From Marivirga sp. ANT-B6 (GTDB taxonomy: Bacteria > Bacteroidota > Bacteroidia > Cytophagales > Cyclobacteriaceae): a stretch of 34,709 bases of DNA. Below, in pieces: positions 210 through 25,774 of this stretch. The stretch spans positions 1-34,709 of the forward strand of contig LXQK01000012.1 of NCBI GenBank assembly GCA_001683905.1, read 5' to 3'. The translations under genes and the position numbers were made by a program. Position 1 is the first letter of the stretch. Each line of letters opens with the position of its first letter. The notes beneath the pieces are model-generated. The model ran no database searches. It saw only the letters and a list, made by a program, of their open reading frames with translations, and was not told where the DNA came from.

Positions 210-809
210 TTATCTTGTTCTGTCGTAAGAACCAGAGCCAGTTGTAGGGCCTGAATCTGTACCCGAGCTATAAACGTCTTCTCCAATGGTGTTCCACTCA
301 TTTTCAAAGTACGCTGCATCGTCCGTAGAACGTGGCGTGACACCCATCACAATACCACCCTCGGCAATGCCTTCTTTATAATACTCAGCTTTTTCCTTCG
401 GAATACCAGAACCGACTAAAGCACCAATCAGTCCGCCTGTAAGACCACCAGCTCCTGCTCCTGCAAGGCCGGCAGCAATTGGGCCAGCTACGATCAGACC
501 TAATCCTGGTATCAAGACAGAAGTACCAATAGCAGCTACCGCACCTACTATAGCACCTAGCGTGCCTCCAATCGCAGATCCTTTTCCAGCAGTTTCCATG
601 GCTTTATCACCCAAGTCTGTATCACGATGTTCATTATCATCCTTAAAATTGGTGTCCCGGGTTTCATCAGACATTAATAAAGTAATTTCATCTTTATTAT
701 ATCCTCTATCTATCAAAGACCTGTAAGCGCGCTCTGCACTATCCCGATCTCTAAACATACCGGTAATAATACCTGTATCTTGATTTTTGTTGTCTCCTGA
801 AATGTTCAT
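210..809 (-). CDS. General-stress-type glycine-zipper protein (YflT/GSP17M-like N-terminus)
   Basis: A 199-residue protein. The N-terminal part (about residues 13-50) reads TGIITGMFRDRDSAERAYRSL, as in the YflT/general stress protein 17M-type domain found in Bacillus and Bacteroidota stress proteins. About residues 72-135 form a long Gly/Ala-rich stretch with regular small-residue spacing (GSAIGGTLGAIVGAVAAIG, then GLAGAGAGGLTGGLIGALVG), a glycine zipper that could insert into or associate with membranes. The stretch around IPKEKAEYYKEGIAEGGIVMGV is typical of the family, and the tail is Ser/Gly/Thr-rich and probably disordered. No enzymatic motif is visible. It is monocistronic, with a perfect terminator downstream and a candidate promoter upstream. 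The exact role is unknown; a stress-related role is inferred from family resemblance only. Confidence 0.8.
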   Translation of the reverse strand: MNISGDNKNQDTGIITGMFRDRDSAERAYRSLIDRGYNKDEITLLMSDETRDTNFKDDNEHRDTDLGDKAMETAGKGSAIGGTLGAIVGAVAAIGTSVLIPGLGLIVAGPIAAGLAGAGAGGLTGGLIGALVGSGIPKEKAEYYKEGIAEGGIVMGVTPRSTDDAAYFENEWNTIGEDVYSSGTDSGPTTGSGSYDRTR

Positions 810-1031: not shown

Positions 1032-1499
1032 CTATGCTCTAAAGAATATCTTATAGCTGACAATATTTCCCGTAGAATCTTTTTGAACCTTATAAAAGTG
1101 GATCGTTTTGAGTCCATTATAATTTTTCCATTTAATTGCCTTATTTTCCTGGAAGCTTGTCGGGGTAGCCTCTTTCAAGCCGAAATATTTTAAACTTTCA
1201 GGTGAAAATGGAATATGCAGAGGATCGTTGATAATGATATCGTTGGACTTGCCTTTCAGATATTGAATTTCCAGGTCGAATTTCTTATACCGTTGTACTA
1301 AAATCTTTCGTGATAATATTTGAAGGGTATAGGTAGTGTCTGGCTCTCCCAAAATTTCAACTACCTCTGTCGGGGAGTGTTGAATCAGGTGAGGAATATC
1401 CAGGACAATAAGGTCTTCTTTCGGTGCTTTCTCTACACAAGAAACCAGCATAACGAAAGACACAAAAAGAAGACCAACGATATTGAAGAAAGATCGCAT
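1032..1499 (-). CDS. Small lipoprotein of unknown function
   Basis: A 155-residue protein with a lipoprotein signal peptide: a hydrophobic stretch followed by LVSC, with Cys21 as the probable lipidated residue. The mature part is mixed alpha/beta in character. It starts with an acidic/lysine segment (VEKAPKEDL), followed by 'LIQHSPTEVVEILGEPD', which recalls the small fold seen in lipoproteins that sense an ascending strand after GEPD (BamE/SmpA-like proteins also carry G-x-P-D turns); this comparison is weak. No catalytic motif was recognised. The gene starts 18 bases after the TonB-receptor stop, on the same strand and with no visible terminator between them, so the two are probably co-transcribed. 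It may be an accessory protein of the receptor. Confidence 0.7.
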   Translation of the reverse strand: MRSFFNIVGLLFVSFVMLVSCVEKAPKEDLIVLDIPHLIQHSPTEVVEILGEPDTTYTLQILSRKILVQRYKKFDLEIQYLKGKSNDIIINDPLHIPFSPESLKYFGLKEATPTSFQENKAIKWKNYNGLKTIHFYKVQKDSTGNIVSYKIFFRA

Positions 1500-1517
1500 G
1501 AGATGATTCTTTGGCTT

Positions 1518-4388
1518 TTACTCTAACAGATACGATACACCCAAAGAAACTGTTCTACCTGTATTGTATGACTGGTAGATGTACTCTATATCGTTATGCT
1601 CCTGGGTAAATTTATAGGCTGGGTTCAATATGTTTTGGAAGGCTAGCTTCGCACTGAACTTTTCAGCAATTCTTTTGGTAACGGCCAAATCTAATACATT
1701 CCTGGGCTGCTCGTAAATATTGGGCGTACCGCCTGTACTTACGACTGTTAGTCGTTGGCCCAGGACATTATATGAAAGGTTTGCTGTGAACCCTTCTATG
1801 CCATACATAAGAAAGGCATTCACAATATAAGGAGACTGGCCGAACAGCTCTCTTTTCGATGAAGCCTCCGGATCGTTCACCCTGATAATTGCTAACTCTG
1901 CTTCGTTGATATCTACTTCAGATTTGATTAACGATACATTAGATCCTATTTTGAAATTATTCATGAAGCCTCCCATAAAGCCCAGACTTTTCCTTATTTC
2001 AAATTCCATCCCATACACGGTAGCCTGGTCTACATTACGGTATAGAAATTTCAAACCATCCTTAGGCTCATTATTAAAAGGACTCGTCGCTCGCTCTATA
2101 GGATTGCTGAAGTTCTTATAGAAACCACTTATAGAAATTATCTCACCTGCCTCTGGAAATAGCTCCCATCTCAGGTCAATATTATCAATTACAGTCCTTT
2201 CCAGGTCTGGATTTCCAGTAACTTCCGCGTCCCCAAGAAAGTCAAAGGTTGTATACCTTGCTAATTCTCTAAAAGTAGGTCTCGCGATGGTTCTTCCATA
2301 AGCTAACCTCAAATTCATGTTTTCTTTTAGCTGCTGCGTGATATTGATAGCAGGTAAAATGTCGTCATTTTTGACATTGGCGAACCTTTGATCTTCAGCA
2401 AGGAATTCGCTGGCATTAGATAAAGAAATATTCGTTTGCTCATACCTTGCACCAGTGCTTATTTTCAACGACTTGCTTACCTGCAGGTCTATCATGGCAT
2501 ATGCAGCCGGCACTTTTTCGTTTCCTGTATAACTACCGCCAAGAGATTCGTTTTTGCCTACGGTAATGCCATATCTATATCGAGGGCCCGCATTGGTTTG
2601 TTGAATGGCTACCAAACCCAAATTCGAATCCGCGAAGAAATCACTAATGTTGCCATCGTAGGGCTGTGTGTTGCTATTGGATTTATATTCGATAATGGTT
2701 TCCTCAAAATCTCTGTCCTTCTCCAGGTATGCGCCACCGAATTTAACTTTGGAACTTAAGCCTGACCCCAGCGAAACGGGAATTTCAAAATTAAGTTTTA
2801 AATCAATATTGGTTTCGTTCAAATTTCTGAAATATCGGCCAGGGTTGCCTGAGGCATTTTCAAAAGTTCTATACGAGGTGCCTTCTGGCGCCTGAACAAT
2901 TACATTGTTAAAAAATCGCAGATCCGGTTCATCCTGTGTAGAATATGTATAGGCTGTAAGCCAGTTGATTTTTATAGGATTATTTGCATCCCCCAGGGCA
3001 TGGTCTCCTTTTAATTGGGCCGAGCTTAATGATCTATGTACATTTTGTATGGCACGGTTTTGTAATTCCTCCTGTTCATTGTTGGCATCGGCAGGAAATG
3101 TTCCCTGAAGAAATCTTGAAGATGCATCTGCGCTTTGGTTTCTCAACAAGTTTAACCCAATCTTATGATTTGAACTGATTTTATAGCTTGTATTGAGCAA
3201 AGCGCCCCACAGTACCGATTCTACGCCTCTGGTATCTGAAAACTCCCTTAAAGTGATCAATTCTGGCGCATCTACTGAACCCGGAAGAAAATATCTGCCC
3301 GTTTTTCCATTGTCGTAGAATTCATAGCTTCGTTGGTAACTTATTCCCCCGATAAAACCCAAAGGCTTTCCTAATAAGGTTTTTTGATTACCTACAGAGA
3401 AAGAATAGCTTTGGTTCAGGAAAGGCAATTTTTTAACAGGATCGAAACTTGTGTTAAAGGCCTTCGAGGCGGCGTCAAGGGCTAAAGCTTGCTGCTCATC
3501 TCTTACCGAAGGGGCAGGAATTGGCCCGTTTAAAATATCGGGAAGCGCATGTGTTCCATCGTCAAAACCAGCAAAAAAAGTTTTTCCCTGTGTATCGGAT
3601 AAAAATGACTTGTTAAAAGTTGCATTTGTATTATATCCCAGCGAAGTCGAGGCTTGAATGGTAAGCCTGTCTGGAAAGTCTTTCGTAGTAATGTTTACAA
3701 ATCCACCACTGAAGCTGGCCGGCAATTCCGGGGAAAATGTTTTGTAAACTACGAGGTTATCGATGAGGTTAGACGGGAACAAATCCATCTGAACGGCATT
3801 TTTATTAGGATCCAGCCCTGGTATTTCAGCATTGTTCAGCGATGTTTTGCTATACCTATCACCCAGGCCCCGAACGATAACATATTTCCCTCCTTCAACA
3901 GACACACCGGTGACGCGCCTCATGGCAGCTGCTGCATCATTGTCATTGCTACGGGCAAATTGCTCAGAGGAAATTCCATCCATGACGAGGCTTGATTTGC
4001 GCTGTATTGTAAGCAATGCAGACTCAGAGTTTTTGATGGCCTCAGCCTGGATAACCACCTCTTCTAGACCAATGGTCTCATCGGTTAATCGTATATTTTG
4101 AATCGTGACCTCTCCGCTATTTACCACAACAGCTTCGATTGTTTTAGCCTGATATGAAACAAATGAGAAAGTTAACGCATGCGTACCAGCGCTAACATTA
4201 TTGATGGAATATTTTCCATCCAGATCAGTAGCTGCACCATTGGCTGTTGCGCTTATAATGACGGTAGCGCCAATTAATGGTTCGCCTGTTTTATCGTCAA
4301 TGACCTGGCCCCTGATCGTACCCGTTTGGGCAGACACTTGGGCAATGAAAATAACCTGAAGTAAGATTAATGTTAGAAAACGCATCAT
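1518..4388 (-). CDS. TonB-dependent outer-membrane receptor with N-terminal CarboxypepD_reg-like domain
   Basis: A 956-residue protein. Signal peptide about 1-20, ending VSAQ. A carboxypeptidase-regulatory-like beta-sandwich follows at about 23-105 (TIRGQVIDDKTGEPLIGATV), then a linker and the plug domain at about 125-235, with the signature GKYVIVRGLGDRYSKTSLN and GLDPNKNAVQMDLFP. The rest (about 240-956) alternates turns and amphipathic strands as in a 22-strand barrel and ends in a beta strand (TVSLGVSYLLE). The plug motif with 'RRVTGVSVEGG' marks a Bacteroidota receptor family that recurrently neighbours beta-helix lipoproteins such as the gene at 4565-6253. It would import an unidentified substrate across the outer membrane using TonB energy. 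No siderophore- or SusC-specific feature was recognised; there is no SusD partner. It has its own promoter (4405-4412) and is probably followed by the small lipoprotein in one transcript. Confidence 0.95.
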   Translation of the reverse strand: MMRFLTLILLQVIFIAQVSAQTGTIRGQVIDDKTGEPLIGATVIISATANGAATDLDGKYSINNVSAGTHALTFSFVSYQAKTIEAVVVNSGEVTIQNIRLTDETIGLEEVVIQAEAIKNSESALLTIQRKSSLVMDGISSEQFARSNDNDAAAAMRRVTGVSVEGGKYVIVRGLGDRYSKTSLNNAEIPGLDPNKNAVQMDLFPSNLIDNLVVYKTFSPELPASFSGGFVNITTKDFPDRLTIQASTSLGYNTNATFNKSFLSDTQGKTFFAGFDDGTHALPDILNGPIPAPSVRDEQQALALDAASKAFNTSFDPVKKLPFLNQSYSFSVGNQKTLLGKPLGFIGGISYQRSYEFYDNGKTGRYFLPGSVDAPELITLREFSDTRGVESVLWGALLNTSYKISSNHKIGLNLLRNQSADASSRFLQGTFPADANNEQEELQNRAIQNVHRSLSSAQLKGDHALGDANNPIKINWLTAYTYSTQDEPDLRFFNNVIVQAPEGTSYRTFENASGNPGRYFRNLNETNIDLKLNFEIPVSLGSGLSSKVKFGGAYLEKDRDFEETIIEYKSNSNTQPYDGNISDFFADSNLGLVAIQQTNAGPRYRYGITVGKNESLGGSYTGNEKVPAAYAMIDLQVSKSLKISTGARYEQTNISLSNASEFLAEDQRFANVKNDDILPAINITQQLKENMNLRLAYGRTIARPTFRELARYTTFDFLGDAEVTGNPDLERTVIDNIDLRWELFPEAGEIISISGFYKNFSNPIERATSPFNNEPKDGLKFLYRNVDQATVYGMEFEIRKSLGFMGGFMNNFKIGSNVSLIKSEVDINEAELAIIRVNDPEASSKRELFGQSPYIVNAFLMYGIEGFTANLSYNVLGQRLTVVSTGGTPNIYEQPRNVLDLAVTKRIAEKFSAKLAFQNILNPAYKFTQEHNDIEYIYQSYNTGRTVSLGVSYLLE

Positions 4389-4404
4389 TTATCAAAATTT
4401 TATG

Positions 4405-4412
4405 CAAAGGTA
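4405..4412 (-). promoter_or_regulatory. -7 promoter element TACCTTTG for the TonB receptor
   Basis: The minus strand carries TACCTTTG, an exact match to the Bacteroidota -7 consensus TAnnTTTG, 17 bases upstream of the receptor ATG. A canonical -33 TTTG is not evident; one AATGTTAA copy (4425-4418) lies just upstream of the -7 element. Confidence 0.6.
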
Positions 4413-4417
4413 GGGTC

Positions 4418-4494
4418 TTAACATTTTCCCATAGTTATTGGTATTTTATGTAAATGTTAATTTTTAACATTATTTGCGAAAATGAAATAACATT
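4418..4494. repeat. Repeated TTAACATT/AATGTTAA motif, including an inverted pair, upstream of the TonB receptor
   Basis: Copies: TTAACATT at 4418-4425, AATGTTAA at 4453-4460, TTAACATT at 4464-4471 and the shorter TAACATT at 4488-4494. The middle two form a perfect 8-bp inverted repeat with a 3-base spacer. The same-orientation copies are spaced 46 and 23-24 bases. The position, just upstream of and partly overlapping the receptor promoter, suggests a regulator-binding region. The regulator is unknown, and the AT-rich background makes chance matches possible. Confidence 0.45.
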
Positions 4495-4500
4495 AAATTA

Positions 4501-4536
4501 ATATGGCAAAGAACTTGCATAAGTTCTTTGCCATAT
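4501..4536 (-). terminator. Perfect 16-bp hairpin between the beta-helix lipoprotein gene and the TonB receptor
   Basis: ATATGGCAAAGAACTT and its exact reverse complement flank a 4-base loop (GCAT). The hairpin lies 28 bases beyond the stop of the 4565-6253 gene. On the minus strand it is followed by TAATTTAATGTTATT, a weak rather than continuous U-tract. It may terminate the upstream gene or stabilise its 3' end. Confidence 0.65.
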
Positions 4537-4564
4537 CTGTAAAGGGTAAAAAGGTTAAAAAGGA

Positions 4565-6253
4565 TTACTCAAAAAGGCCATAGGCATCTGCTGCTGTCCA
4601 ACCAATCAACCAATTGTTACTTCCGAAAGCGCCCTTGTAAGTTACCGTTTCGTAGGTAAAGCCGTTGACAGGAGCAGCGGGATAAGCAGCCAAACCACTA
4701 TAGGCAGGACCCGTAGTTGCAGGTATCGGGTTTAAAGCGTTGACTGCTATACCGCCCAAAGCTGGGTTTTCATACGTATTGGCATTTGCCGTAAGATGGG
4801 TAGCAAGTGGCGCTAAACCCTCAGCAACCTGATCTAAAGTAGTGTAGGCACCTATGCTCCAAAAAATGTTGTTCGAGAATACTAGCTCACCATTTTCTAA
4901 TCGATCTCTTGTATTCTTACCTGGTGCACCAACATCAGTAAGATTAATACCTGACCTAAATTGGGTTATGATGCTGTTTCTAATAAACCCGCCATTCCCT
5001 TCAGTCATAAAGATAGCTGGTGCCCCACCTGGAGTGGCACCTAATTGGGTAGCAGTTCCAATTAAAGTCATGTTAAAGACGGTTGGCTGAGAGAAAACGT
5101 CTGATCCCAGGTTGTCACTGTGAGCTCCGTCAAGCTCCATTCCACGATCAGAACCAGCAAAGTCAGGCACCTGGTAAGCGAACCAAAACTGGTTCTGTCC
5201 TCTATAACCAAAATCCCAATCAAAAGCGTCGTCCTGATTATAAATAGAAGCTAGGTAACTCGTGTTAACCGTACCTCCAAACCACTCAAAACCGTCATCA
5301 TCATTACCATATACTTCAATATATGATATCTCTGTTCCTGAACCTACACCACCCATGGTTAAGCCGTTAATCTCGTTGGCGGCACCTATAAGTGTTCCCC
5401 CATGACGGATAGAAATATATTTTAATTTACCAGAATTATCGTCTGCAACGTTGCCACCATAAATCCCTCTTGCTTCTGTTTCAGGTATTCCTTCGATTAT
5501 TGTTTGGGTAGCCACATGGTTGATAGGCGCTTTTCCCAGCACAATTAATCCACCCCAGAGCCCTCTGGCGTTTACAGCGAGATCATCAGGATCTTCCGTA
5601 TCGTCATCCTCAGCGGTGAAGATAATTGGATTTTCCTCAGTGCCTACTGCCATTATTTTACCCCCACGTGCTATGATTAACGCACTGGCGCCGGCTCCCT
5701 GACCTGGCTGTCCTTTAACAACTGTTCCTGCCTCTATGGTTAAAGTTTGTCCATCATTAACATAAACAAAACCCCGTAGGATATAAATATTGTCTGCTGT
5801 CCATGTCACTGTACCTGTACCATTGGCGCTGTTCAGAACCTCCACGATAGGCTTTTCAACCACGGGAGCTTCCGTGACACTTACTGTTGCGGCTTCAGTG
5901 GCTGTTAGTGAAGGACTCTGTGCGTCATTCACTGTTAGCGTGATGGTCTGGCTTCCGGCAGTGGCAGGAGCCGTGTAGGCTACGTTGACAGTTCCGGATG
6001 TCTTACCTGTAAGGTCATTTAAGTTTGTTATTGAAGCTGTCCCAGCAGATGCCTGCACAGTTATAGTTTTTACATTTCCAGGTGCATTAACACTAAACGC
6101 TAATGTGGTTTCATTGCCAACCTGTACAGTTGTTCCAGTGGGAACAGTGATAGTTGGCCGTGCTGCAACCGTAGGATCATCATCCTTATCGCAAGCCGAA
6201 AAACCGACCGTAAGGGTGGCCATAATTAAAAATAGGTACGAAAATCTTTTCAT
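4565..6253 (-). CDS. Surface-exposed beta-helix lipoprotein, partner of the TonB receptor
   Basis: A 562-residue protein. A lipoprotein signal ends FSAC with Cys21, followed by DKDDD. A run of acidic residues just after the lipidated Cys is the known Bacteroidota signal for export to the cell surface. Residues about 30-130 resemble an Ig-like/Big-type beta-sandwich (PTITVPTGTTVQVGNETTLAF, later AYTAPATAGSQTITLTV). From about 150 the pattern changes to a right-handed beta-helix-like region with ILRGFVYVNDGQTLTIEAG, ALIIARGGKIMAVGT and NPIIFTAEDDD, followed by asparagine/aspartate-rich turns. Databases often mislabel this family 'multidrug transporter'; nothing here supports transport by itself. 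Because it neighbours the receptor gene, a surface capture role is a reasonable inference. The ligand is unknown. It is separated from the receptor by a hairpin and a promoter, so it is probably a separate transcription unit. Confidence 0.85.
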   Translation of the reverse strand: MKRFSYLFLIMATLTVGFSACDKDDDPTVAARPTITVPTGTTVQVGNETTLAFSVNAPGNVKTITVQASAGTASITNLNDLTGKTSGTVNVAYTAPATAGSQTITLTVNDAQSPSLTATEAATVSVTEAPVVEKPIVEVLNSANGTGTVTWTADNIYILRGFVYVNDGQTLTIEAGTVVKGQPGQGAGASALIIARGGKIMAVGTEENPIIFTAEDDDTEDPDDLAVNARGLWGGLIVLGKAPINHVATQTIIEGIPETEARGIYGGNVADDNSGKLKYISIRHGGTLIGAANEINGLTMGGVGSGTEISYIEVYGNDDDGFEWFGGTVNTSYLASIYNQDDAFDWDFGYRGQNQFWFAYQVPDFAGSDRGMELDGAHSDNLGSDVFSQPTVFNMTLIGTATQLGATPGGAPAIFMTEGNGGFIRNSIITQFRSGINLTDVGAPGKNTRDRLENGELVFSNNIFWSIGAYTTLDQVAEGLAPLATHLTANANTYENPALGGIAVNALNPIPATTGPAYSGLAAYPAAPVNGFTYETVTYKGAFGSNNWLIGWTAADAYGLFE

Positions 6254-6451
6254 TGTGTAAGTTTTAGTTTGTTATTCACTTCCGCAAAGTTGAGTAATAT
6301 TTGTTAAGTCAGGGCTTATATTACATTACCATATTGTTAAAACCAGCCATCGTATATTACCTCAAGTTTAAGAAAATATCATAAACCTTCGTTTTTGGGG
6401 TATCTCGGCTGTTTGAAACAATGAAGGTCTATTTTTTCGTTATAGATACAT

Positions 6452-7798
6452 ATGAAAGCAATCTATGCGCTATTCTCTTTAATAATTATTGTGGCATCTT
6501 CCGCAGATACGCTGGCCACGATGTGGATTGGAGCTAGTGATGGGTCCAGAGATGGCAACGGCACGTTGGAGCATCCTTATGACTTAAAAACCATTTTCGG
6601 ATCCGGAGGTGGTATAAATCCTAAAAAAATTCAGCCCGGGGACACCATTGCGATACGCGGAGGTACTATTAATGATAGTTATTGGGTGCAACTCTATGGA
6701 ACCGAAAATGCACCTATTGTTGTCATGCCGTATCAGCAGGAAAAGGTAATATTTGATACCAACTTCCCAAGGAAAGTAAAAAACGAATTAACATGTGCCA
6801 TAAAATTGTCGGGGGATTACATCATATTCAGAGACTTCACCTTTACCAGTACTATCCAACATCGGGTATCGGAGGGTACTACCGGTAAAAGTATGGGAAT
6901 CAACACGCGATCAGGTATGTATCTCTACGCCACCAATTCTAAGGTGATCAACTGTGTTTTTCATAACCTCACCAGCAATGGTATCCTATGGCTGGCGCAA
7001 TCCAATAATACGTTGTTGTATGGCTGCCTTTTTATGATGAATGGCTGGGATGGCTCCGACCGTGGTCATGGACATGCTATCTACATAAGAAATAACAATG
7101 TTTCTAAACCCAAAGTAATTGCCAATAATGTTTTTCACAATAGCATGGGGCATCAAATTAACGGATACGGTGAAATAGAAGGCTTTATCGTAAAGAATAA
7201 CGTTGCTTTTGAGGGAGGTAACTTAAGCAAGCATGGAGCTGAAAGGAATATATTTTTCGGGGGCTCTGGTAGAAGCAAGACCATCGACGGTTTGGTAATC
7301 ACCGACAACATCACCTATCATCGTGGAGAAGGCAGAGGCTTTGAGGTAGGTTATATTGAAGAAAATAAGAAATCTGTGGTCATTAAGAATAATATCATCC
7401 TGGGTGGCAGGCTGCTGGTGGTAAAAGAAGGATTTGAAAACCTGGAGGTAGCGGACAACCAACTTAAAATGACTGATCTTGTGAAGGTTCAGCCTAATCA
7501 ATATGACCACAAAAAAGCGACAATTACAGTCCTAAATCCGGAGGAAAAACCAACAATCAACGTTGATCTATCGGCTGTTTTACCAAAAAATACACGTTTT
7601 AAACTAATAGACTACCAGAACTATTATGGCAAACCCGTATTAGAAGGCATCTATAAAGGAGGCACTATTACATTACCGCTTCACCTGAAAGAGATACTTG
7701 AACCGATAGGGGACGTAAATGTGAAGCCAACACATACCGGCCCGGAATTTAACAGCTTCATGCTTTTAGCTGAGCAAGACCTTTACCCCCCAAGTTGA
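6452..7798 (+). CDS. Secreted right-handed beta-helix protein (possible polysaccharide lyase-like fold)
   Basis: A 448-residue protein with a signal peptide (about 1-22, a hydrophobic stretch then SSADTLA). The start of the mature part (WIGASDGSRDGNGTLEHPYDL, then IQPGDTIAIRGG) is the typical cap of parallel beta-helix proteins, where a 'G-T-x-x-x-P' segment precedes the first turn. Turns of the helix follow as IFRDFTF, KVINCVFHN, NNTLLYGCLF, KVIANNVFHN, FIVKNNVAF, LVITDNITYH and VVIKNNIIL. Family members include pectate lyases and other polysaccharide-acting enzymes, but I could not identify a catalytic set, so activity is not assigned. The C-terminal 100 residues (VDLSAVLPKNTRFKLIDYQN) look like a separate beta domain. 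It diverges from the lipoprotein gene with 198 bases between them. Its stop abuts the stop of the convergent MoxR gene. Confidence 0.8.
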   Translation: MKAIYALFSLIIIVASSADTLATMWIGASDGSRDGNGTLEHPYDLKTIFGSGGGINPKKIQPGDTIAIRGGTINDSYWVQLYGTENAPIVVMPYQQEKVIFDTNFPRKVKNELTCAIKLSGDYIIFRDFTFTSTIQHRVSEGTTGKSMGINTRSGMYLYATNSKVINCVFHNLTSNGILWLAQSNNTLLYGCLFMMNGWDGSDRGHGHAIYIRNNNVSKPKVIANNVFHNSMGHQINGYGEIEGFIVKNNVAFEGGNLSKHGAERNIFFGGSGRSKTIDGLVITDNITYHRGEGRGFEVGYIEENKKSVVIKNNIILGGRLLVVKEGFENLEVADNQLKMTDLVKVQPNQYDHKKATITVLNPEEKPTINVDLSAVLPKNTRFKLIDYQNYYGKPVLEGIYKGGTITLPLHLKEILEPIGDVNVKPTHTGPEFNSFMLLAEQDLYPPS

Positions 7799-8788
7799 TT
7801 ACTTATTGATTGGCACCTTATTCAATATGTTTCGGATCAGGTCCTTTGTATTGACACCATCTGCTTCAGCTTCATAATTCAGGATAATTCGATGGTTAAA
7901 AACGTCTGGTGTAACTTCTTTGATGTCCTCCGGTAATACATAATCCCTGTTATCAAAAAAGGCAATGGCCTTTGCAGCCAGGTTCAGGTTGATGCTTGCT
8001 CTTGGCGAAACACCAAACTGAATATAATTGGCCTCATCATGCAGACCGTAATCGGCAGGTTTACGTGTTGCAAAAACGAGTTCCACAATGTACTTTTCCA
8101 GCGAATCAGAAATATTGACCTGGTTGATCTCATCCCTTATCTGGAAGATATCGTTTTTTGTAAGAATGGTATTTACCTCTCCTTTAAAGCTTAAGTTAGA
8201 CATCCTTCGCATTACCTCCAGTTCAGATTCCTTTGAAGGATAGTTTACGTAAACCTTCATCATAAACCTGTCCATCTGAGCCTCTGGTAAGGGATAAGTA
8301 CCTTCCTGATCCACTGGATTTTGTGTTGCCAATACCAGGAAGGGCCTGTCTAGAAGAAAAGTCGTTTCGCCGATGGTTACTTGCTTTTCCTGCATGGCCT
8401 CCAGCAAAGCTGCCTGAACTTTTGCAGGTGATCTGTTGACTTCATCAGCAAGAATCAGGTTTGAGAAAATTGGTCCTTGCTTCACCTGAAACTCCGAGAT
8501 TTGCTGGTTATAGATCATGGTACCTACGAGATCTGAAGGCATCAGATCTGGCGTAAACTGAATGCGTTGAAAGTTGAGGTGCAACACCTTCGCTAAGGTA
8601 TTTACGGTTAGTGTTTTAGCTAATCCAGGCACACCTTCCAATAGAATATGCCCTTGGGTAAATAGGCCTATCAGCAATCGATTTATCATATACTCTTGCC
8701 CTACCACAACTTTCCCCACCTCCTGGAATACTTGATTTATCTTTGCCTGGTGATCTTTTCTGACGTCTCTATCTGTTAGCTCTTCCAT
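7799..8788 (-). CDS. MoxR-family AAA+ ATPase
   Basis: A 329-residue protein. The AAA_3 core carries Walker A GVPGLAKT (about 52-59), Walker B LILADEVNR (about 112-120), the sensor segment FLVLATQNPVDQEGTYPLPEAQMDRF typical of MoxR, and an AAA-lid region with GVSPRASINL. MoxR ATPases act as chaperones that mature partner proteins, commonly with VWA or DUF58 proteins encoded next door. None of those partners follows here: downstream is the convergent beta-helix gene, with zero bases between the stops. The gene upstream on the same strand is only a short questionable ORF. The partner is therefore presumably encoded elsewhere. The ATG at 8788 is supported by the usual family N-terminus (EELTDRDVRKDHQAKI). 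Confidence 0.93.
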   Translation of the reverse strand: MEELTDRDVRKDHQAKINQVFQEVGKVVVGQEYMINRLLIGLFTQGHILLEGVPGLAKTLTVNTLAKVLHLNFQRIQFTPDLMPSDLVGTMIYNQQISEFQVKQGPIFSNLILADEVNRSPAKVQAALLEAMQEKQVTIGETTFLLDRPFLVLATQNPVDQEGTYPLPEAQMDRFMMKVYVNYPSKESELEVMRRMSNLSFKGEVNTILTKNDIFQIRDEINQVNISDSLEKYIVELVFATRKPADYGLHDEANYIQFGVSPRASINLNLAAKAIAFFDNRDYVLPEDIKEVTPDVFNHRIILNYEAEADGVNTKDLIRNILNKVPINK

Positions 8789-15980: not shown

Positions 15981-16598
15981 TTATCTTTTACCCCCTGGCG
16001 TCTCCTTTTTTTCCCTCCACTCCAGCGTATTGATGAGCTGTACAAGGTCTGCTTTAATATATTCTATCACGGGTGCGAGCGAATCATTTTTTGTAGCCGT
16101 CTCGAAATAAAGCGCCCCCCGTAGGAAATGTTGTACAGAGTCGGTCATGATAAACTGGAACTGACTCGGCACTTCACCGCTTAACTCAGCTACCATTGCG
16201 GTTTTTCCACTCGGCGTTATCAACGCGGTTTCTTCAATAGCATAGGCCTTCACCTGGTGTTTGGAGGTAAGCTTGTAGGCATCGCCCAAATACTGCTCCA
16301 GCAACTTTTGGTTATTATTGATGGGCTTGTATGTGATTTGTACACTCGCGCCCATTTGCGGATACACAATATCCAGCCAATACTTTTCCGCGTACGGTGA
16401 AGAATCTTTGCTTAATCTGGCATATCGCGAGAATTCAAATTGATAAGGTAAGGTATCGGCCAATGACTGGTAAGCAGGTGCAGGTAATATTATTCTGTTG
16501 TAACCTTTTGGCTTGGGAAGATAGTCTTCTGAACAGGCTGAAAATAATAGTGCTGCCAACAAGCAGAGGGTAATCTTACGTATGTACTCTTGGATCAT
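15981..16598 (-). CDS. gldD: Gliding motility lipoprotein GldD
   Basis: A 205-residue protein with a lipoprotein signal ending LLFSAC (Cys22). The mature sequence starts [14 protein letters not shown] and continues with [11 protein letters not shown], which is the GldD family signature; length is as expected. GldD is required for gliding and type IX secretion in Flavobacterium johnsoniae, and GldD and GldE are encoded next to each other there too, supporting both calls. It lies 19 bases after gldE, and its stop overlaps with the recG start region (no gap). The lipidated protein should sit in the periplasmic face of the outer or inner membrane; the exact role is not settled. Confidence 0.95.
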
Positions 16599-22760: not shown

Positions 22761-22794
22761 ATATATAACCCATCAAATGGCATGGGTTATATAT
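22761..22794. terminator. Perfect hairpin between rng and the convergent UbiA gene
   Basis: ATATATAACCCAT pairs with ATGGGTTATATAT (13 bp) around CAAATGGC. It lies 24 bases after the rng stop and overlaps the last codons and the stop of the convergent prenyltransferase gene. No long U-tract follows on either strand. It probably serves as a bidirectional transcription end. Confidence 0.6.
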
Positions 22795-23645
22795 ATCACC
22801 AGAAAAAAGATGTTTAGGCATACCGCCGATATCGTATTAAGCTGCATCGTAGACTTAAAATTAGCCGCCCTGGCATCCTTTCTTACCCTTCCAAACCAAT
22901 AGAAAAAATAGAGCAGCATAGGCAAAATAAATACCTGAAAAAGGATTGCTTCTCTGGGGGAGAAGTACTGGAGAAAGAATAAAATGAAGCCAATATTTGC
23001 CAGTACAAAAACACCCGCTGTAAACATGAAGGTGCCCTTGATCCCCAGCCTGATACTCAACGTATAATCACCTCTCCGCGAATCCTCTTCGTGCTGGTAA
23101 ATCTGCGTCATCGGGTATGACCCCCACAGCAGGACCGAACTTAAAAATGCAGGAAATAAAACCGCCTCCTGTAACGACGCCGACAAAGTGAGCTGGTTGA
23201 TCCCGATATAAATCATTATAAAAGTAAAAAAACCCTGAAAAAGTCCTGCCATCAACCATCCTCCAAAGGGGTATTTCTTTAACCGGATCGACGGATGACT
23301 ATAGGCTTTTGAAATTAACCCATAAATCAACAGCATAAGCGCAAACTCAAGGCTGATAAAAACCCCCATGATAAGCGCGATCAGATCAAAAAATAAAGAG
23401 GTATAATATAGTTCTTTTCGAACTGGTGGTGGATTTTCCAATCCACCGATACTAGACTCATCTTTATCGAAATAGCTATTATAACCATTGCTGGCAGGGT
23501 ATAAAAAGAGGTGGAGAATAACAAAAACCAGCAGCGTATACCCTGTGTTGGCAGATGGTGAAATGCTCAGTGCAAATAAAAATACGGGCATCAAGTAGAA
23601 AGAAAAAGGAATTCTCAAATGAAGCCATGTTGATTTGTGGAGCAT
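22773..23645 (-). CDS. UbiA-family prenyltransferase
   Basis: A 290-residue polytopic membrane protein with about eight hydrophobic segments. The first Asp-rich motif is NGYNSYFDKDE (Asn53 to Asp62) and the second, QIYQHEEDSRRGD, precedes TLSIRLG as in UbiA enzymes. In that second motif the usual leading Asp is Gln, while the later Glu/Asp residues are kept. UbiA enzymes attach a prenyl chain from a diphosphate to an aromatic ring at the membrane. The N-terminus LRIPFSFYLMPVFLFAL differs from typical MenA or UbiA. It diverges across 291 bases from a type III polyketide synthase, whose aromatic product would be a natural acceptor; this is inference. Confidence 0.85.
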   Translation of the reverse strand: MLHKSTWLHLRIPFSFYLMPVFLFALSISPSANTGYTLLVFVILHLFLYPASNGYNSYFDKDESSIGGLENPPPVRKELYYTSLFFDLIALIMGVFISLEFALMLLIYGLISKAYSHPSIRLKKYPFGGWLMAGLFQGFFTFIMIYIGINQLTLSASLQEAVLFPAFLSSVLLWGSYPMTQIYQHEEDSRRGDYTLSIRLGIKGTFMFTAGVFVLANIGFILFFLQYFSPREAILFQVFILPMLLYFFYWFGRVRKDARAANFKSTMQLNTISAVCLNIFFLVIYITHAI

Positions 23646-23936
23646 ATAATGGGTTATTTAAAACAAGTTATCACTTTTTTGCTTAATATAGAAGATCTAT
23701 CCAAATAGGACGAGATAATCCTTCTATGATGACAGAACAGGGTATAGCTCGAATGAAAATCAAAAGCAAGGGTTTTACTTTAAGTGACGAGTATCTTGTA
23801 CTACACACTTTGATCTATATCCAAACGCCTACTTTTTTCAGTCATGCGCCTTAAAACTAAGCCTACGGATTAAAACTGTTGAATTAAAAATAAATAGGGC
23901 ATTCCTGTACATCATTATTTAAAAGATATAACTCAT
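23646..23936. other. Divergent intergenic region between UbiA and the type III PKS
   Basis: Just under 300 bases between two divergent genes that both need promoters. I found no exact TAnnTTTG element. A 42-residue ORF (23726-23854, plus, starting MMTEQGIARM) is possible but has no recognisable family. No tRNA, repeat or hairpin of note. Confidence 0.4.
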
Positions 23937-25046
23937 TTGAAAACTTATATAACTGCGATAGGCACGGCAAACCCTCTTCATTCTCTTCCACAAGCAGAGA
24001 TAGGAGAGTTTATGGCTGATGCATTAAATCTGCAAGGAAATGAACGACGAAGACTAAAAGTGCTATACCGGGCGTCTGGTATACAGTCACGGCAATCGGT
24101 CATAGAGGATTACGGCAAAAAAAACGGTGATTTTACTTTTTTCCCCAATACCCGAGAGCTTGAGCCCTTCCCTGACGTAGCCGATAGGATGGCACTATAC
24201 AAAGATTCGGCGCTCGATCTGTGTGTAAAGGCAGCACATCGTTGTTTTGAGGGTACCAATGGCATAGCCAATAAAGATATTACCCATATAATCTCGGTAA
24301 GCTGTACGGGCATGTATGCTCCCGGATTGGATATTGAATTGGTGGAAGCCCTTTCACTAAGCACCCATGTACAACGAACAGCGATTAATTTTATGGGCTG
24401 TTATGCCGCTTTTAACGCTTTAAAAGTAGCTGATGCAATCTGTAGGGCAGATGCTGATGCTAATGTGTTATTGGTATGCGTAGAATTATGCAGCATACAC
24501 TTTCAGAAAAAAAACGACGACGACAACCTCCTTGCCAATGCACTATTTGGCGATGGTGCCGCTGCAGTAATCCTCACATCGAAACCAAAAAAGGGATTAT
24601 CGCTCTCGCTGGAAAATTTTTATTGCGACCTGGCCTATGCCGGAAAGCAGGAAATGGCCTGGAACATAGGTGGTCTTGGTTTTGAAATGCGCCTCTCGGC
24701 TTATGTACCCGATATTATCAAGTTGGGCATAAAGAAGCTTGCTGATAATCTTTTACAAAAGATCAGCCTCAGCCGTAAAAACATCGACTTGTTTGCTATA
24801 CATCCGGGAGGAAAAAAAATACTTGAAACCATAGAAAAGGAGCTTGGCTTAACCCGGCAAGATAATGCCTGTGCCTATAAAGTACTCAGGGAACACGGCA
24901 ATATGTCTTCACCAACAGTACTATTCGTGTTAAAGGAGATTATGGACGGCATCGGTATTGATGAAGAAAAGAAAAATATATTGAGCTTTGCCTTTGGGCC
25001 GGGATTGACCATGGAAAGCATGCTTCTCAAAAGTCACTATAACTAA
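23937..25046 (+). CDS. Type III polyketide synthase (chalcone synthase-like)
   Basis: A 369-residue protein with a TTG start. The catalytic triad is in place: Cys155 in NFMGCYAAFN, His289 in FAIHPGGKKI and Asn322 in REHGNMSSPT. Also present are FGDGAAA (204-210) and the C-terminal AFGPGLTME loop. These enzymes extend a CoA-activated starter with malonyl-CoA and cyclise the chain to a pyrone, resorcinol or phloroglucinol-type ring; starter and ring type cannot be read from sequence here. Its N-terminus and SCTGMYAPGLDIELVEAL are typical of the bacterial clade. The methyltransferase gene begins 11 bases after its stop, and the UbiA gene diverges upstream. Confidence 0.93.
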   Translation: MKTYITAIGTANPLHSLPQAEIGEFMADALNLQGNERRRLKVLYRASGIQSRQSVIEDYGKKNGDFTFFPNTRELEPFPDVADRMALYKDSALDLCVKAAHRCFEGTNGIANKDITHIISVSCTGMYAPGLDIELVEALSLSTHVQRTAINFMGCYAAFNALKVADAICRADADANVLLVCVELCSIHFQKKNDDDNLLANALFGDGAAAVILTSKPKKGLSLSLENFYCDLAYAGKQEMAWNIGGLGFEMRLSAYVPDIIKLGIKKLADNLLQKISLSRKNIDLFAIHPGGKKILETIEKELGLTRQDNACAYKVLREHGNMSSPTVLFVLKEIMDGIGIDEEKKNILSFAFGPGLTMESMLLKSHYN

Positions 25047-25057
25047 TCCAGTAACTC

Positions 25058-25774
25058 ATGACCGGGAAGTTTCGACATCGTTCTACTCAAAAAGAAATCA
25101 TGGATGATTTTAATGGTGCAGGAGCCGAAATGGATCAGACGCTTCGCGAACTGGATGCTGTCAACCGGATATTAGGCGGTAATAATATCAGTATCGACGG
25201 CTTGCAAAAATTTCTTAACGATAGAAAAGTCGGCGCATCGATAACCATTGCTGATTTAGGATGCGGTGGAGGCGATATCATGAAGAAGATGGCAGACTGG
25301 GGAAGGAAAAAAAACATTCAAATGGCCTTAGAAGGTGTTGATGCCAATCCTAACATCATCGGCTACGCCCAGAACAATACGGCGGAATATTCAGAAATAA
25401 CCTATAAAACGCTTGATATATTTTCTGACGAATTCAGACAGCGCAAGTATGATCTAATACATTGCAGCCTTTTTACACATCACTTCACAGATGAGGAATT
25501 GGTCTGTTTATTTGGCCAGCTAAAGGACCAGGTGAGAATAGGGATCATTATCAACGATCTGCAGAGAAACTGGTTCGCCTATTATGCCATCAAGTACATT
25601 ACAGCGGTTTTTTCCCGATCTGCTATGGTCCAAAATGACGGCCCGATTTCCGTACTGAGGGCATTTCACAAAAAAGAGTGGGAGAATATCCTGGGTCAGG
25701 CCGGAATAAAAAACTTCACGATGAAATGGATGTGGGCTTTTCGCTGGCAGGTTTTAATAAGTAGGAAAGCATAA
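25058..25774 (+). CDS. SAM-dependent methyltransferase (class I)
   Basis: A 238-residue protein. Motif I is ADLGCGGGD (about 65-73), followed by the acidic post-I segment LEGVDANPNII, and a motif around YDLIHCSLFTHHFTDEELV, with the histidine pair typical of this Bacteroidota clade. An active-site helical cap at the N-terminus (RHRSTQKEIMDDFNGAGAEMDQTLREL) resembles methyltransferases that follow type III PKS genes. It would methylate the ring carbon or hydroxyl of the polyketide; which is unknown. It starts 11 bases after the PKS gene, surely in one operon. The next gene converges with only 3 bases between stops, so no further pathway enzyme follows. Confidence 0.88.
   Translation: MTGKFRHRSTQKEIMDDFNGAGAEMDQTLRELDAVNRILGGNNISIDGLQKFLNDRKVGASITIADLGCGGGDIMKKMADWGRKKNIQMALEGVDANPNIIGYAQNNTAEYSEITYKTLDIFSDEFRQRKYDLIHCSLFTHHFTDEELVCLFGQLKDQVRIGIIINDLQRNWFAYYAIKYITAVFSRSAMVQNDGPISVLRAFHKKEWENILGQAGIKNFTMKWMWAFRWQVLISRKA

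Follow-up and report, generated by a model that had tools for sequence, protein, structure and literature searches.

In Caulobacter, the surface lipoprotein ElpS (CC0170) is produced under phosphate starvation and adjoins the TonB receptor CC0171, the gene of which was reported to be constitutive, while deletion of elpS left phosphatase activity unchanged (PMC2996285). A similar arrangement is found in Flavobacterium johnsoniae, where the β-helix lipoproteins FI and FII, induced at low phosphate, lie beside TBDTs (Fjoh_3856/3857 and Fjoh_0546/0545; PUSIII and PUSIV). The SusC/SusD and PusC/PusD systems likewise combine a TonB receptor carrying an N-terminal CarboxypepD_reg-like domain with a surface lipoprotein. 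BtuG is a β-propeller for cobalamin, unlike the β-helix described below. The BtuB-BtuG vitamin B12 pairs of Bacteroides are nevertheless comparable, in that a non-SusD surface lipoprotein is combined with a TonB receptor (PMC10404256).

Here, a locus in the window, i.e., the whole stretch of 34,709 nucleotides from Marivirga sp. ANT-B6 (a draft genome, 82.7% complete), was compared with these systems. It is likely that the window holds a PhoB-controlled, ElpS-type outer-membrane pair for phosphorus acquisition, and membership in the ElpS and FI/FII kind is well supported by homology and gene order. The likeness to ElpS was traced through a homologue in Sphingomonas, where the locus is of the elpS type (hhalign probability 100%, E 8e-44, 37% identity, 276 columns), and alphaproteobacterial receptors are homologous to the window receptor over most of their length, with 25-26% identity. 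The alphaproteobacterial relatives of the pair lie upstream of T2SS genes, exactly as elpS/cc0171 does, whereas T2SS genes are absent from the window. The window lipoprotein also differs from ElpS in its Bacteroidota acidic export signal and its Ig-like domain. Compared with SusC/SusD and PusC/PusD, the lipoprotein has a β-helix in place of the SusD fold, and with the NCBIfam SusC model the receptor reaches 67 bits, below the cut-off of 368. Regarding F. johnsoniae, the receptor gene precedes the lipoprotein gene there, while the window has the lipoprotein first, which is the order of a separate clade; furthermore, phoBR is absent beside the window copy, unlike at the Fjoh_0541-0546 locus. The window family was found at the matching phoBR locus of Flavobacterium-like genomes (a label inferred from gene order), and the link to Fjoh_0546 consists of gene order and these homologues. 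Since the co-occurrence of ElpS and CC0171 and the low-phosphate induction of FI and FII have been published, the kind of system is already known. The present analysis adds that one pair of families unites both reports, and that a Pho box is common to the promoters of the pair even where no phosphate gene is near.

Architecture of the Locus

The features of the locus, all on the minus strand, are as follows.

1032..1499 (-): 155-aa lipoprotein (ORF), a sub-clade accessory
1518..4388 (-): 956-aa GLGDRY-type TonB-dependent receptor (Pfam PF13715, PF07715, PF00593), of the receptor family that is paired in relatives
4404..4412 (-): TACCTTTGC before the receptor gene (sequence), resembling the Bacteroidota -7 element TAnnTTTG
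4444..4460 (-): Pho-box-like site TTAACATTTACATAAAA, 72 bp before the receptor start, 16.8 bits
4500..4537 (-): 17-bp perfect hairpin between the lipoprotein and receptor genes, -22.6 kcal/mol, z -8.5 versus shuffles
4565..6253 (-): 562-aa surface-type lipoprotein (ORF, AlphaFold model); signal 1-20, Cys21, acidic DKDDDP, Ig-like part ~34-127, β-helix ~136-550
6284..6292 (-): CAACTTTGC element, position kept in L047 and L053
6302..6307 (-): third TTAACA half-site, 33 bp downstream of the first half-site
6324..6340 (-): Pho-box-like site TTAACAATATGGTAATG, 87 bp before the lipoprotein start, 16.2 bits

The gene anatomy given in the preliminary description was borne out: the open reading frames place the three genes on the minus strand with 18 bases between the receptor gene and the 155-aa gene. 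The receptor is of the GLGDRY type, as had been stated, with a CarboxypepD_reg-like domain, a Plug (E 7.8e-8) and a barrel (E 2.5e-30) in Pfam, and contains RGLGDRY. A Pfam and NCBIfam profile search of the window gave no SusD-family gene beside it, again in agreement. The nearest NCBIfam model was TIGR01782 (TonB-Xanth-Caul) with 262 bits, which is still below the cut-off of 310. For the 562-aa lipoprotein, the sequence and the AlphaFold model (pLDDT 86.5) likewise agree with the earlier reading of Cys21 with an acidic signal, an Ig-like part and then a β-helix. The protein belongs to no Pfam family and has no NCBIfam match above cut-off, and when both lipoproteins were compared by sequence with Pfam, NCBIfam and PDB, no relative with a bound ligand emerged. 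Its Cys21 with the acidic DKDDDP is an export signal of the type that most relatives have, and by this signal the lipoprotein is predicted to reside on the cell surface.

Pairing of the Lipoprotein and the Receptor in Relatives

The lipoprotein family is present in 56 of 59 genomes, comprising its own and 58 relatives, and in an even sample of 297 genomes from the whole phylum a profile search detected it in 202. In the family loci fetched from relatives, the receptor directly adjoins the lipoprotein in 56 of 59 cases. The lipoprotein and the receptor are thus a conserved pair, near-universal in the order and widespread in the phylum and beyond. Most sampled Bacteroidota genomes carry a family, usually beside a TonB receptor, that has no Pfam entry and is mostly annotated as "hypothetical protein". 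Two gene orders occur, lipoprotein-then-receptor (the window type) and receptor-then-lipoprotein, which follow the receptor tree almost perfectly, with 3 changes; the window receptor falls in an 11-row clade with support 98. Within the lipoprotein, conserved residues cluster in the β-helix (NEiNGLT..GVGSGT, DDG.E.FGGTVN and DD..D.D.G..G) and include the acidic residues E254, E294, D319, D320, E323, D341, D345, and E373, the ~20-30-residue spacing of which suggests an acidic face on the β-helix.

The family also varies in form. Additional members lacking both a receptor and the lipobox cysteine, perhaps secreted forms, were observed in Flavobacterium-like loci (L241, L242, L244, L252, L254, L256, L258, L259). 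Moreover, two or three β-helix domains or genes stand in tandem, beside one receptor or alone, in L078, L091, L099, L130, L131, L150, and L183. A candidate second lipoprotein of the same genome, on contig C82, was excluded from the family because only the signal and the Ig-like part are in common and because it belongs to a SusCD locus.

The small lipoprotein behaves differently. Co-occurrence of all three genes had been expected at the outset; this holds strongly for the lipoprotein and receptor but to a limited extent for the 155-aa protein. Of the 59 loci, 6 contain relatives of it, always convergent and never co-directional downstream, and five of these 6 loci belong to the same clade as the window. 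It should therefore be regarded as an accessory, its co-directional place 18 bp after the receptor being specific to the window. That the three genes form one functional complex, with the 155-aa protein as a periplasmic or surface subunit, is suggested by the short gap and by the relatives at the same place within the clade; considering the convergent orientation, the few loci, and the failure to find a consistent Pho box before the small-lipoprotein genes of relatives, we judge this quite unlikely. The three-gene set is really a conserved pair with a sub-clade accessory. The motif LGEPDT in the 155-aa protein had raised the suspicion of a BamE-like protein, and its model (pLDDT 84) gave no PDB fold match at E 0.001.

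Linkage to Phosphate Genes

Phosphate genes were looked for near the pair within the window, and none were found. In relatives the surroundings are more telling. In Flavobacterium-like genomes, e.g., L243, the pair is divergent from genes for a PhoB-like regulator, a histidine kinase, a PF07396 porin, and a GT28 protein. The same order is present in F. johnsoniae at Fjoh_0541-0546, where phosphate depletion causes a strong induction of both the receptor and the FII lipoprotein (PMC8115612). In L255 and L257, a PF07396 porin and a PHO4 phosphate transporter lie downstream of the pair. In Alteromonas macleodii, the row consists of phoB, phoR, a phosphate-binding protein, an oxygenase, the lipoprotein homologue, the receptor, DUF3450, and an ExbB/ExbD/TonB set. 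Annotated records of Sphingomonas and Indioceanicola contain the lipoprotein, the receptor, and T2SS genes in a row, which is the arrangement of the Caulobacter elpS-cc0171 locus (PMC2996285).

This linkage was also counted. Of 139 loci that were collected solely for their similarity to the lipoprotein, 14 had a PhoB-like regulator (at least 190 bits) on the fetched stretch, a number that overstates independent events because the loci are related to one another, compared with ~0.5 expected, given that relatives have about one such gene per genome. None of the PhoB-like proteins tested reaches the NCBIfam PhoB equivalog cut-offs. On the receptor tree, phosphate linkage requires at least 15 changes and appears in both clades; L166 is an example from the 11-row clade of the window. 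In an unbiased Pfam survey of 118 flanking proteins, OmpR-type regulators were the most frequent (13), and polyphosphate kinase (3) and PHO4 (2) also ranked among the commonest. The earlier proposal of a receptor paired with a surface lipoprotein stands, the pairing being conserved across phyla, while its "substrate unknown" can be narrowed to phosphorus acquisition on the strength of the PhoB, PhoR, Pit, and polyphosphate-kinase neighbors, the Pho box described below, and the published low-phosphate induction of the related lipoproteins in F. johnsoniae and Caulobacter.

The same survey bears on two other substrates. If the pair served glycan import, the β-helix lipoprotein would bind or cut a polysaccharide in the manner of a polygalacturonase and the receptor would import the products, with phosphate control confined to some relatives. 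The best solved fold for the 562-aa lipoprotein is indeed GH28 exopolygalacturonase, although the match is weak, and modelling led the authors of the F. johnsoniae study to propose that FI and FII bind plant cell walls (PMC8115612). However, Pfam glycosidase models for GH28 polygalacturonase and pectate lyase do not match the lipoprotein even at E 1, the commonest neighbors are regulators and phosphate genes rather than carbohydrate-enzyme families, and the Pho-box motif occupies about nine in ten promoters, which makes glycan import very unlikely. Import of iron or a metal complex, with the phosphate linkage reflecting phosphate-metal cross-talk, would fit the classical general role of TonB receptors, and the conserved acidic face could bind cations. 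Nevertheless, siderophore or Fur-type genes were not recurrent beside the pair in the Pfam neighbor survey, and the low-phosphate TBDTs of F. johnsoniae were induced by phosphate depletion only, not by iron or nitrogen limitation (PMC8115612); a metal substrate is thus most improbable.

Pho-Box-Type Repeats in the Promoters

The promoters of 119 pairs, with the window left out, were subjected to motif discovery by unseeded expectation-maximisation starting from random stretches. The motif obtained was TTAACA-N5-TTAACA, with an 11-bp period and an occupancy of 91%. Pho boxes in general are built from direct repeats with an 11-bp spacing (PMC4415409), and for PhoP of Riemerella anatipestifer, a PhoB-type regulator in the Bacteroidota, the most conserved core in DAP-seq is TTTAACA (PMC9603813). 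Within 250 bp upstream, TTAACA-like hexamers spaced by 11, 22, and 33 bp were present before 52, 48, and 38% of phosphate-linked pairs, and before 51, 34, and 27% of pairs outside the phosphate-linked set, compared with 9, 5, and 4% of 661 other genes in the same loci. Furthermore, a held-out model built from 24 phosphate-linked loci scored 52% of the unlinked pairs higher than the 95% threshold set by the controls (p = 6e-33). Upstream of three proteobacterial pairs, candidate Pho boxes of the E. coli type were unconvincing. For the Bacteroidota, the motif provides a usable Pho-box model with which the Pho regulons of uncultured genomes can be predicted.

In the window, 11-bp-period direct repeats of the Pho-box type lie in the promoters of both the lipoprotein and the receptor. 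When both strands of the whole 34.7 kb were scanned, TTAACATTTACATAAAA was the best and TTAACAATATGGTAATG the second-best match to the promoter model. For TTAACATTTACATAAAA, 1.2-1.4% of control promoters score as high. TTAACAATATGGTAATG is moderately rare, its score being reached by 1.5% of 661 control promoters, by 5% with the held-out model from phosphate-linked loci only, and by 0.05-0.15% of promoter shuffles (p 0.0005-0.0015). The spacing of the third half-site and the CAACTTTGC element equals that in L047 and L053. A scan with the promoter model gave no Pho-box-like sites at the loci of eight other receptors of this genome.

The genome contains five exact TTAACA-N5-KTAACA sites, some oriented opposite to the gene, including those upstream of phoB-phoR (a PhoB-PhoR pair is located on contig C95), the PhoX phosphatase, and two other TonB receptors; the genome-wide count is not safely above the reversed control, so that the positions alone are informative. 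The two further receptors, on contigs C119 and C218 (L269, L263), are candidates for extra phosphate-regulated transporters.

Proposed Capture and Delivery of the Ligand

PhoB control of the pair is supported by the motif evidence, and the pair is probably switched on when phosphate is scarce. We infer that in Marivirga sp. ANT-B6 the pair is induced, forms a complex, and imports a ligand that contains phosphorus. The process may be envisaged in several stages. At low phosphate, PhoB would bind the 11-bp-spaced TTAACA repeats before each gene. Large amounts of the lipoprotein would then be synthesised, and its acidic signal would direct it to the cell surface. Here, the hairpin between the two genes, a candidate terminator-like or processing site, implies that production of the lipoprotein could exceed that of the receptor. 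FI, a relative of the window lipoprotein, is the most abundant exoprotein of F. johnsoniae under phosphate starvation and is apparently likewise in excess (PMC8115612). At the surface, the β-helix with its conserved Asp/Glu face would capture or handle a phosphorus-containing ligand, a capture role for the lipoprotein having been suggested from the beginning. Subsequently, the TonB receptor would take over the ligand and bring it into the periplasm in an energised step, and phosphatases together with Pit/Pst may complete phosphorus uptake there.

Alternatively, the lipoprotein may activate or anchor a surface phosphatase rather than capture for the receptor, which would import or sense something else, as suggested for ElpS. 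Overproduction of ElpS raised secreted phosphatase activity, although ElpS itself is no phosphatase (PMC2996285), and the receptor-less members in Flavobacterium-like genomes would suit such a role. However, adjacency to one receptor family is tight across phyla and in two gene orders, which points to joint work of the lipoprotein and the receptor; the helper role is therefore considered unlikely. The capture-and-import process might also be extended to a general class, so far unrecognised, of SusD-less outer-membrane phosphorus importers in Bacteroidota and several other phyla, in which an acidic-faced β-helix supplies a GLGDRY receptor with the specific phosphorus compound or polymer that it captures; this extension is put forward tentatively and with some doubt. 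The shared Pho box raises a testable question, namely which phosphorus compound is carried across the outer membrane during starvation.

Further Genes of the Contig

Between moxR and the pair lies a gene for a 448-aa secreted protein (6452-7798, plus strand), a β-helix by eye, with no Pfam or NCBIfam match and no tblastn match in the 60 loci fetched from relatives. The MoxR ATPase (7799-8788, minus strand) is a conserved flank of the pair (25 loci), and in R. anatipestifer the promoter of moxR is among the sites bound by PhoP (PMC9603813). Epimerase, LOG-like, and uvrA genes flank the pair in many relatives, and a lipoprotein family of ~187 aa follows it in nine loci of the receptor-first clade (L076, L080, L086, L087, L089, L090, L093, L095, L096). 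At 210-809 (minus strand), a 199-aa protein has a weak match to the YflT (heat-induced stress) domain, E 2.3e-4, below cut-off. A viral-contig search found nothing. The gliding lipoprotein GldD (E 5e-65) is encoded at 15981-16598 (minus strand), and the host thus probably possesses gliding or type IX secretion genes. Finally, a UbiA prenyltransferase, a type III polyketide-synthase-like protein, and a methyltransferase adjoin one another at 22773-25774, possibly constituting a small lipid or pigment pathway.
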